DNA of 64,000 nt. It comes from Ensifer adhaerens. GTDB lineage: Bacteria > Pseudomonadota > Alphaproteobacteria > Rhizobiales > Rhizobiaceae. Both the position numbers and the translations under genes were made by a program. Below are positions 28,887 to 31,563 of the stretch, one piece after another; positions within the stretch are counted from its first letter, which is position 1, and the number at the start of each line of letters is the position of its first letter. The stretch spans positions 372,001 through 436,000 of the forward strand of contig NZ_LGAP01000001.1 of assembly GCF_001270265.1 (NCBI RefSeq), given 5' to 3'. Below the pieces are notes generated by a model. The model did not search any database, had not been told where the DNA came from, and worked only from the letters and a program-made list of their open reading frames with translations.

Positions 28887-30190
28887 GCGATCTCTTCTCC
28901 TCCTCGGAACCGCCGGAAATGACCTCGGCTAGGCCGCTTGCCGATCGTCTGCGTCCGCGTACGCTGTCCGAGGTCACCGGTCAGGAACACCTGACGGGCG
29001 AGGATGGCGTGTTGACGCGAATGATCGCATCGGGCTCGCTCGGCTCGATGATCTTCTGGGGACCGCCGGGCACGGGCAAGACGACGGTCGCCCGGTTGCT
29101 GTCGGGTGAGGCGGGTCTGGCCTTCGAGCAGATCTCCGCAATCTTTTCCGGCGTCGCCGATCTCAAGAAGGTTTTCGAATCGGCGCGGGCGCGGCGGATG
29201 TCTGGCCGTCAGACCCTGCTCTTCGTCGACGAGATCCATCGTTTCAACCGTGCCCAACAGGACAGCTTTCTGCCTGTCATGGAAGACGGTACGGTCATCC
29301 TGGTTGGGGCGACGACGGAAAATCCATCCTTCGAGCTCAACGCCGCTCTCTTGTCGCGCGCCCGCGTGCTGACGTTCAAGCCGCATGGAGAAGAGAGCCT
29401 GCAGGAATTGCTGAAGCGTGCGGAGGAGACGGAAGGCAAGCCTCTTCCGCTCGACGCGGACGCGCGGGCAAGCCTGATCCGTATGGCCGACGGTGACGGC
29501 CGGGCGGCGCTGACGCTGGCCGAGGAAGTCTGGCGCGCCGCGCGGCGCGACGAGGTCTTCGATGTCGAGGCGCTGCAGAAAGTCGTGCAGCGGCGAGCGC
29601 CCGTTTACGACAAGGGCCAGGACGGTCACTACAACCTGATCTCGGCGCTGCACAAATCGGTGCGCGGCTCCGACCCCGATGCCGCACTTTATTATCTCTG
29701 CCGGATGTTCGATGCCGGTGAGGATCCACTCTATCTCGGGCGACGGCTCGTTCGCATGGCGGTGGAGGATATCGGCCTTGCCGATCCTCAGGCGCTGGCG
29801 ATCTGCAATGCCGCCAAGGACGCATATGATTATCTCGGCTCGCCGGAAGGCGAACTGGCACTGGCCCAGGCCTGCGTCTATCTCGCGACCGCGCCGAAGT
29901 CGAATGGTGTCTACACGGCCTACAAGGCGGCGATGCGGGCAGCCAAGGAAAACGGTTCGCTTCTGCCTCCGAAACATATCCTCAACGCACCGACCAAATT
30001 GATGAAGGGTGAGGGCTACGGCGACGGCTATCGCTACGATCACGACGAGCCCGATGCGTTCTCCGGGCAAGACTATTTCCCCGAAAAGATGGGACGCAAG
30101 ACTTTCTATGATCCACCGGAACGCGGCTTCGAGCGGGAGATCCGCAAGCGGCTGGAATGGTGGGCAAAGCTGCGTCGGGAGCGAAGCTGA
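28883..30190 (+). CDS. rarA: Replication-associated AAA+ ATPase RarA (MgsA)
   Basis: A 435-residue AAA+ protein of the RarA/MgsA/WRNIP1 family that acts at stalled replication forks. Walker A is GPPGTGKT at residues 60-67 and Walker B VDEIHRFN near residue 115; sensor 1 is GATTENPSFELN. The C-terminal tetramerisation region (DAALYYLCRMFDAGEDPLYLGRRLVRMAVEDIG) is intact. It overlaps the protease gene by four bases. Confidence 0.94.
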   Translation: MSDLFSSSEPPEMTSARPLADRLRPRTLSEVTGQEHLTGEDGVLTRMIASGSLGSMIFWGPPGTGKTTVARLLSGEAGLAFEQISAIFSGVADLKKVFESARARRMSGRQTLLFVDEIHRFNRAQQDSFLPVMEDGTVILVGATTENPSFELNAALLSRARVLTFKPHGEESLQELLKRAEETEGKPLPLDADARASLIRMADGDGRAALTLAEEVWRAARRDEVFDVEALQKVVQRRAPVYDKGQDGHYNLISALHKSVRGSDPDAALYYLCRMFDAGEDPLYLGRRLVRMAVEDIGLADPQALAICNAAKDAYDYLGSPEGELALAQACVYLATAPKSNGVYTAYKAAMRAAKENGSLLPPKHILNAPTKLMKGEGYGDGYRYDHDEPDAFSGQDYFPEKMGRKTFYDPPERGFEREIRKRLEWWAKLRRERS

Positions 30191-30251
30191 CTCTCTGTCG
30201 CGAGGCATTTCCTGACGGAAAACCGCTTCGCACTTTCCCTGAAAATGCTTA

Positions 30252-30274
30252 AGCCCTGCCAGTCGCGCAGGGCT
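30252..30274 (+). terminator. Hairpin after rarA
   Basis: AGCCCTGC and GCAGGGCT pair perfectly around a seven-base loop, 61 bases after the rarA stop. Only GATTTG follows, so it is a weak intrinsic terminator candidate separating rarA from the riboswitch-controlled exporter. Confidence 0.5.
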
Positions 30275-30329
30275 GATTTGCCCCGGCATATCTTGCTGCC
30301 GTCAGTGAACCGTGAGATAGAAGCCGCGT

Positions 30330-30410
30330 TGCAGACGGCTGCACGGTTTTGAGACTCTCGATACCGAACATCCGCGGGGACGGCCTCGCTCCATACTCTA
30401 GGAGTTTGAA
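30330..30410 (+). promoter_or_regulatory. Candidate guanidine-II (mini-ykkC) riboswitch
   Basis: Two hairpins each present an ACGG loop: TGCAG-ACGG-CTGCA at 30330-30343 and GCGGGG-ACGG-CCTCGC at 30374-30389 (one G-U pair). They are 30 bases apart, and the second is 10 bases before AGGAG and 21 bases before the ATG of a Gdx-type exporter. Paired hairpins with ACGR loops next to the ribosome binding site define the guanidine-II class, in which guanidinium brings the loops together and frees the Shine-Dalgarno sequence. Confidence 0.8.
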
Positions 30411-30725
30411 ATGGCCTGGTTAATCCTCCTGCTTGCCGGCATCCTTGAAATCGGCTGGGCAATCGGTCTCAAATATACCGAAGGCTTCACGCGGGTAACG
30501 CCGACGATCCTGACCGTCGGTTCGATGATCTTCAGCATCGCGCTGCTGGGTCTGGCGGTCAGAACCCTGCCGCTTGGCACGGCCTATGCCGTCTGGACCG
30601 GCATCGGCACCGTCGGCACCGTCATTCTCGGCATCTTTCTCTTTGCCGAACCGGCAACGTTTGTCCGCCTCGGCTGCATCACCCTGATCGTTGCCGGTAT
30701 CGCCGGGCTAAAGCTCTCCGCTTAA
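30411..30725 (+). CDS. sugE: Guanidinium exporter of the SMR family (Gdx/SugE)
   Basis: A 104-residue four-helix small multidrug resistance protein. The essential glutamate lies at residue 13 in [19 protein letters not shown], and [18 protein letters not shown] matches the SugE/Gdx subtype rather than EmrE. Gdx proteins exchange guanidinium for protons across the inner membrane. The upstream two-hairpin ACGG element independently supports guanidinium as substrate. Confidence 0.93.
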
Positions 30726-30777
30726 CGCGTCGTCAGAGATCTCTCGTAATTCTTTCGCAATGTGTCCCGGCGCGCCG

Positions 30778-31563
30778 CTACCGCAGCGCGTCGAGAACGG
30801 CTGCTGCCGCCTGCATTTCCTGCCAACGGGCTTCGCGGCGCTTGAACGCCTCCTCGTCCGTGCCCCAATGCTCGATCTGCCAATCTTCGTCGACATGGGC
30901 CGCGGTCCAGGCCTGTTCGGCCGTCAGCCGGCCGGATGCGAACGCAACCGCAAGCAGGGCCGAGCCGGTCAAGGTGGTGATCGTATGCACGCAGGTCAGG
31001 CCAAGCGGCGTCGCAAAAGCGCGTAGACCCTCTGCATAGGCAGTGATCGCCTCACCAGGCTGTTCCTGGTGGATGACGCCTTCGGCAAGAATGAAACGGG
31101 CGCCCAGCGACTGCGCGGCCCATTCGAGCACCGGATTCCAGACGGCGTTCTGCCGTCCGACGAGCCCTTCCGGGCTGTCGGCGCGGTAGCAGAGCAGATC
31201 GGTTCCGGCAAAGCGCAGCACGTCCTCGAAAACCGAGCGTTGGTCCTTGGCAACACCGTCGAGCGCCGTATTGACGATCCGGGTGACCGGCATCTTGGCG
31301 GGATCGATGACTTCGACCTGCGCATCCCATTCGGCTGCCAGCATCTCGGCAAGCCTGAGGGTGGGGACTGCAAGCGGATGTTTCGCCGGCGTGCGGACCG
31401 GCCGGCCGTCAAGCAGGACGCTGTGGCCGCCGTCTTCCGAGGCGCCGATGCTGACGTCCTTGTAGAAGCGCTTGGGCAGCGGCTTCAGCATCTGGATCTG
31501 CGCGCGCCGGACCGGGTCCTCGTGGCTCAACGCACCGCTGAGTTCGTCGCGAATATCAGGCAT
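30778..31563 (-). CDS. ATP12-family F1-ATPase assembly chaperone
   Basis: A 261-residue protein of the ATP12 family, characteristic of alphaproteobacteria and mitochondria, which binds the F1 alpha subunit during ATP synthase assembly. PLPKRFYKDVSI at the N-terminus, the central AGTDLLCYRADSPEGLVGRQ and the C-terminal AWTAAHVDEDWQIEHWGTDEEAFKRR are typical. The start MPDIRDELSG at 31563 overlaps the end of the HAD gene by eight bases; the open frame extends 51 codons upstream without similarity. Confidence 0.88.
   Translation of the reverse strand: MPDIRDELSGALSHEDPVRRAQIQMLKPLPKRFYKDVSIGASEDGGHSVLLDGRPVRTPAKHPLAVPTLRLAEMLAAEWDAQVEVIDPAKMPVTRIVNTALDGVAKDQRSVFEDVLRFAGTDLLCYRADSPEGLVGRQNAVWNPVLEWAAQSLGARFILAEGVIHQEQPGEAITAYAEGLRAFATPLGLTCVHTITTLTGSALLAVAFASGRLTAEQAWTAAHVDEDWQIEHWGTDEEAFKRREARWQEMQAAAAVLDALR

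Follow-up and report, generated by a model that had tools for sequence, protein, structure and literature searches.

A lineage-specific three-hairpin variant of the guanidine-II riboswitch upstream of the gdx exporter gene of Ensifer adhaerens

Within the window, i.e. the whole 64-kb stretch of Ensifer adhaerens DNA analyzed here, a gene for a protein of 104 amino acids starts with an ATG at position 30411 and extends to position 30725 on the + strand, which also carries all window features described below. The encoded protein belongs to the SMR family (Pfam PF00893) and scored 132.5 bits with the SugE model NF008512 (cut-off 126). Among solved structures, the closest are two SMR chains, 6wk5 (2.9e-30), which we take to be Gdx-Clo, and 8vxu (1.4e-29), both far ahead of EmrE (2.5e-7). 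All of the residues E13, W16, S42, Y59 and W62 are found in the window protein; in the Gdx-Clo structure, the substrate glutamate is held by this set of residues, with W16 distinguishing Gdx from Qac (PMC7695847). An earlier reading, made from the DNA letters without database searches (the sequence-only reading), had assigned this gene as Gdx, and the SugE model, the nearest structures and the residues including W16 all agree. We therefore refer to it as gdx (sugE), a guanidinium/H+ exporter gene; Gdx antiport is described as exchanging 2 H+ for 1 guanidinium (PMC12186494).

A second SugE-like gene is present in the same genome (contig C34, positions 169897-170202; L010) and shares 46% identity with the window Gdx. 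No double ACGR hairpin was found upstream of this paralogue and its 10 relatives (0/11). All 11 genus upstream regions of the paralogue have ATAGTTACCAAAAGGTGCGTAATTG in common, which is perhaps a candidate repressor site.

Upstream of gdx, two hairpins with ACGG loops can be read directly from the sequence, as the sequence-only reading had reported. P1 (TGCAG-ACGG-CTGCA) occupies positions 30330-30343 and shows an A-U pair as the second pair below the loop; P2 (GCGGGG-ACGG-CCTCGC) occupies positions 30374-30389. The P2 stem is G+C-rich and the P1 stem contains two A-U pairs. The two hairpins are separated by 30 nt, and the spacing earlier called acceptable thus lies inside the published range of 7-40 nt for the linker between the two ACGR hairpins of guanidine-II elements (PMC7544219). 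The Shine-Dalgarno (SD) sequence AGGAGT (30400-30405, with AGGAG at 30400-30404) was likewise read directly and begins shortly behind the end of P2 at 30389, in agreement with the earlier placement of the second hairpin near the SD. The linker consists of a predicted, covarying third hairpin (CGGT....ACCG, 30344-30366), which abuts P1, and the 7-nt joiner AACATCC (30367-30373), which leads to P2. The pentamer GCTCC (30388-30392), which shares its first two bases with the P2 foot, forms a 5-bp complement (one G-U) of positions 30401-30405 and represents an anti-SD. Neither this anti-SD nor the third hairpin had been noted in the sequence-only reading.

Further upstream, we noted a putative promoter with a -35-like block CTTGCT (30292-30297) and, about 17 nt past it, a -10-like block AGATAG (30315-30320). 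By eye, CTTG and GATAGA are each present in 16/16 same-genus upstream regions. Since an E. coli-type promoter scan and a terminator scan of positions 30190-30780 gave no match, the promoter call rests on this conservation seen by eye. The transcript is predicted to start a few nucleotides 5' of P1.

The conservation of the element was analyzed in the genus Sinorhizobium/Ensifer, for which the 19 genus-level loci comprise 16 genomes and the loci L040-L042. The closest titled Gdx relatives were L040 of Ensifer adhaerens and L042 of Sinorhizobium medicae, with 94% and 86% protein identity, respectively. P1 and P2 are identical in all 16 same-genus genomes, including the GCAGACGGCTGC core of P1, and the linker between them varies in its letters and in its length from 21 to 30 nt. 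The sequence-only reading had named missing loop conservation in close relatives as an outcome that would count against it, and both loops turned out to be conserved throughout the genus genomes. A scan for pairs of ACGR hairpins (5-50 nt between the two, stems of at least 5 bp with no more than one G-T) detected one pair on the + strand of the 64-kb window, namely the P1-P2 site, and none on the - strand. The same scan found no pair in 200 random sequences (one strand each) generated with a first-order dinucleotide Markov model of the window.

Double ACGR hairpins with varying stems were detected upstream of 43/57 gdx relatives from the family outside the genus and upstream of 54/80 titled gdx relatives; these two counts follow a lax rule (stems of at least 4 bp, within 250 nt of the start) that carries no chance estimate of its own. 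The remaining 14/57 family relatives showed no hairpin pair in this upstream scan. When a tighter limit was set on the distance from the start codon, 107/153 loci (80 + 57 + 16) qualified. Among these 107 loci, the linker is shorter than 18 nt (median 15) in 43. In the genus, a hairpin past P1 is predicted in 19/19 genus-level loci, following P1 directly in 18 and after 1 nt in L042, and always leaving a joiner of 7 nt to P2. The window linker hairpin folds with -9.3 kcal/mol, a value reached by none of 100 shuffles, and it is kept in the minimum free energy (MFE) fold of the leader. Considering the long linkers outside the genus, 26/45 fold to -3 kcal/mol or below; in 17 of these, the second pair of P1 is A-U, and in nine P1 is canonical. 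Conversely, of the 19 non-genus loci that show the A-U second pair, 17 have a predicted linker hairpin, the exceptions being L171 and L175.

A covariance-model search with Rfam had been proposed as a check in the sequence-only reading, and a missing match was the other outcome named there against the riboswitch. This outcome came true: at the gathering cut-offs, the Rfam models matched only a tRNA in the whole window, and Guanidine-II was not among the matches. RF01068 scores 15.7 bits at the site (cut-off 32), taking GAG/CTC of the linker as P1 in place of the ACGG hairpin. In our view, it is the Rfam model that falls short here and not the anatomy that defines the class, and we do not regard this result as fatal. 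A relative (L048) reached 29.2 bits with RF01068, still under the cut-off, and in other genus genomes six matches of 22-25 bits were seen (L191-L196).

We also used a lineage-specific covariance model, R1, derived from 17 non-genus sequences (alignment A1) and from no sequence of the genus itself. Its seeds were chosen for the linker hairpin: out of 19 non-genus loci whose P1 has the A-U pair, 17 were used and the hairpin-less L171 and L175 were excluded. In the window, R1 matched positions 30327-30389 with 58.0 bits (E 1.5e-9), and the next-best place scored 10.7 bits. It further matched 19/19 genus-level loci and 14/151 family genomes (including our own and one other genus member), and all 14 family matches are located 17-49 nt upstream of gdx. 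In the family scan, RF01068 matched none of these 14 sites at E <= 0.001. As its seeds come from the same family, R1 tests the left-out genus and not unrelated bacteria. Across the order, R1 matched 3/297 genomes, all of the same family; no match outside the family appeared at this sampling, at which filters lose weak matches. These results indicate that a rhizobial lineage of gdx guanidine-II switches escapes the standard family model.

The linker helix was further examined by covariation. Among the 17 non-genus relatives, 6/6 pairs of the helix have changed on both sides, with 88.7% of the helix cells paired (A1). In P1, 3/5 pairs have changed on both sides. For the structure as a whole, the covariation score amounts to 0.397, compared to 0.134 +/- 0.020 in shuffled alignments and at most 0.099 with slid partners (A1). 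On one of five measures, the number of further pair types, 50/500 shuffles reached the value of A1. The choice of sequences by their hairpin favours pairing as such, but it would hardly produce compensatory changes throughout all pairs of a single register. Within the genus alone, the evidence for the linker helix is thin: three linker pairs show change on both sides (82/500 shuffles as good), the covariation score was reached by 1/500 shuffles, and in the register of the model, the two inner linker pairs are left open by 10/16 and 9/16 sequences. P1 and P2 give no covariation within the genus because they hardly vary there. Overall, the original reading of a guanidine-II element preceding a Gdx exporter gene is the best one for this site, supported by its loops, their conservation and the identity of the gene, and the element is a lineage-specific three-hairpin variant of the known guanidine-II riboswitch.

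We also analyzed how the element may control gdx. The MFE fold of the leader has -34.1 kcal/mol (z -2.44; 2/200 shuffles as good) and keeps P1 and the third hairpin, leaving P2 open and GGCCTCGCTCC paired with the SD and the start-codon region. Forcing P1 and P2 together costs 5.1 kcal/mol in the window, with a genus median of 4.1 kcal/mol. Across the genus, the SD thereby becomes unpaired to a median fraction of only 0.26, up from 0.02, and stays mostly paired even in the forced state, which counts against the switch model. Two loci, L019 and L042, also speak against it, as P2 is retained in their MFE fold and it is P1 that misfolds. In the window, the MFE fold also pairs CCGCG (30324-30328), located 5' of the element, with the 5' arm of P2; this pairing was discarded as a general feature, as it is not kept across the genus. 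For the comparison between loci, an anti-SD was defined as at least 5 bp covering the SD and starting at or downstream of the penultimate base of P2. Under this definition, an anti-SD is present in 19/19 genus-level loci versus 4.8 expected with a shuffled spacer, in 16/17 three-hairpin relatives versus 2.1 expected, and in only 11/60 other guanidine-II elements versus 6.2 expected; these expectations serve as guides, since the sequences are related and not independent.

On this basis, the element is very probably an ON switch that acts at the level of translation and represents a lineage-specific, three-hairpin form of the guanidine-II class. As long as guanidine is absent, GGCCTCGCTCC, which comprises the P2 3' strand and the bases following it, would pair with the SD and the start region of gdx, and P2 would stay unformed. 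We infer guanidinium as the ligand, which would occupy the ACGG loops of P1 and P2 and stabilise a loop-loop complex. The stabilised P2 would then claim its 3' strand and free the ribosome site, so that Gdx would be made and guanidinium exported. Two bound ligands together with the loop-loop complex could pay the forcing cost of 5.1 kcal/mol. The third hairpin beside P1 would turn the 30-nt linker into a 7-nt joiner and presumably bring P1 and P2 into position beforehand, which suggests a way to keep a long linker short in space.

This reading has to be weighed against several alternatives. That the two hairpins are a product of chance could be argued from the shortness of the motifs, the G+C-rich DNA and the sub-threshold Rfam match, which uses another P1; given the 0/200 random sequences with a pair, the conservation in 16/16 genomes and the R1 match at E 1.5e-9, we regard chance as vanishingly improbable. 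A conserved structure could also be a constitutive or protein-bound element of the 5' UTR instead of a guanidine sensor, and both the low Rfam score and the indirect derivation of guanidine binding at this site leave room for such an interpretation. Against it stand the invariance of both ACGG loops, loops of this type being the published binding pockets (PMC5486947), and a downstream gene that is a guanidinium exporter by its residues, so that we consider a non-sensing structure quite improbable.

A more serious competitor accepts the guanidine-II switch and its two hairpins, and sees in the linker hairpin a neutral spacer without any role. Many guanidine-II elements manage without such a hairpin, as illustrated by the 43/107 short linkers with a median of 15 nt, the published linker range extends from 7 to 40 nt (PMC7544219), and the two loci L171 and L175 combine the A-U pair in P1 with a hairpin-less linker. 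The compensatory changes at 6/6 helix pairs speak against a neutral spacer, as does the geometry of the relatives, in which the helix begins 0-1 nt past P1 and the joiner is held at 6-9 nt (7 nt in the genus) although the hairpin changes in length. Taken together, we consider the neutral spacer unlikely, though clearly less so than the other two alternatives, and favour the three-hairpin form with a functional linker helix.

Guanidine-II riboswitches have been described as two ACGR hairpins whose kissing loops form two guanidine pockets, with linkers of mostly at least 13 nt (PMC5486947), and the genes downstream of them code for exporters and breakdown enzymes (2025 review, PMC12186494). The window element resembles the RF01068 (mini-ykkC) family in its two G-C-closed ACGR loops, a linker inside the 7-40 nt range, the proximity of P2 to the SD and the SMR exporter gene downstream, but it differs by the third hairpin, the A-U second pair of P1, an anti-SD that overlaps the P2 foot, and a score below the cut-off. 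With the sugE riboswitch of E. coli it shares the downstream gene family and the loop motif. However, a putative anti-SD of the E. coli element was placed in the linker between P1 and P2 (PMC9094411), whereas in the window a hairpin takes up the linker and the anti-SD is found at and after the foot of P2. It seems that this lineage freed the linker for the hairpin and moved the anti-SD to the P2 foot; with an anti-SD at P2 and not in the linker, guanidine-II riboswitches would use at least two kinds of expression platform.

Two Pseudomonas loci (L083, L099), which are among the nine non-genus loci with a linker hairpin and a canonical P1, resemble the window element in their 28-nt linkers with a strong predicted hairpin. 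Here, P1 is canonical and G-C-rich, and the hairpin begins 2 nt past P1 and is followed by 8 nt to P2, in contrast to the window. The hairpin of these loci is probably unrelated to and independent of that of the window lineage, and an insertion of this kind probably arose more than once, because the two are unrelated. In the literature on guanidine-II and mini-ykkC, neither a linker hairpin nor a rhizobial gdx switch was found among the matches listed, and a mention in the 2017 work of Sherlock or Reiss is possible.

The most interesting functional neighbour of this class in the genome lies elsewhere, outside the window. A canonical guanidine-II element was detected on contig C56 at positions 132836-132878 with 36.5 bits (positions 1501-1543 of locus L001, which spans C56:131336-134378; see also L038). 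It is located 229 nt upstream of a gene for an additional copy of ATP-synthase subunit a, termed AtpB2 (PF00119, 224 bits), which is 64% identical to the copy on contig C8. By eye, the C8 copy is neighboured by frames resembling atpI and the c and b subunits, while AtpB2 lies off the operon. RF01068 matched 15/16 genus genomes at E <= 0.1 (14 above the cut-off), G012 being without a match. The atpB2 locus was aligned from all 15, of which 14 encode 249 aa and one (L180) stops at 210 aa. In 13 comparisons with our own copy, leaving out L180, dN of AtpB2 ranges between 0.013 and 0.075 versus a dS of 0.27-0.64. Across the element-atpB2 gap in the genus (L001, about 1580-1710), a poorly kept frame of about 41 codons, extending to 60 codons in 3/15, follows an SD-like GGAG and may be a leader peptide or a spacer.

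Two AtpB matches at E <= 1e-60 were found in 10/151 family genomes, and RF01068 matches 19-229 nt upstream of AtpB2 in 10/10 of them, nine at E <= 0.001 and one (G008) below the cut-off with 25 bits; a simple stem scan missed the G008 element. In G112, AtpB2 is cut to 139 aa and the element is also present upstream. A protein search across the order (297 genomes, E <= 1e-103) yielded three AtpB2-like genes besides our own in two other families, and all three of these outside genes are preceded by an element above the cut-off (40.7-46.5 bits). AtpB2 and the operon copies of these 10 family genomes are separated with 100/100 support. Positions at which the residues of the two groups do not overlap include 172 (His in AtpB2, Leu in the operon copies) and 179 (Val versus Asn or Ser), located three before and four after Arg175, which we take to be the essential arginine of subunit a. 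His172 and Val179 are also found in all three AtpB2 copies outside the family.

Guanidinium could be regarded as a free copy of the arginine side-chain head and would as such jam the a-c interface of the ATP synthase; His172 and Val179 of AtpB2 would let the enzyme work despite guanidinium. Judged from these residues, AtpB2 may be a guanidine-tolerant replacement. We thus propose, tentatively and at somewhat less than even odds, a two-pronged guanidine response, in which Gdx exports guanidinium and a guanidine-II-switched AtpB2 with altered residues by Arg175 keeps the ATP synthase working. To the joint statement of this response and a distinct three-helix guanidine-II architecture of the window element we give the same guarded, not quite even credence. 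If true, the AtpB2 link would give guanidine toxicity a specific target in the cell that can be put to the test. A precedent exists in acylguanidine arginine mimics acting at the F1Fo a-c interface, which are described as inhibiting ATP synthase only weakly, with the caution that not all mimics can inhibit (PMC8873251). As a likely cause of guanidine toxicity, the 2025 review offers protein denaturation, and ATP synthase is not mentioned in its main text (PMC12186494). In the literature on atpB or ATP synthase subunits with guanidine, riboswitches or rhizobia, no link between guanidine-II and atpB2 was found among the matches listed.

In some genomes, atpB2 and exporter genes are adjacent. In G085 (L245), gdx is located 23 nt downstream of atpB2, and in G064 (L247) and G362 (L268) atpB2 is followed by an RF01068 match (34 bits and, just below the cut-off, 31.8 bits, respectively) and then by an SMR gene. 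By eye, no SMR gene was noticed beside atpB2 in the remaining genomes. Other guanidine-II elements of the family precede different genes. Three loci (L230, L236, L243) carry the element before a chlorhexidine-efflux (PACE) gene, tested with PF05232 for L230 and judged by eye for the others, and four (L217, L231, L235, L238) before a DUF1989 gene (PF09347, tested for L217, the rest by eye), a domain which is presumably urea-carboxylase-associated. In L215, the element is located before a gene of the Na/Ca-exchanger family (PF01699).
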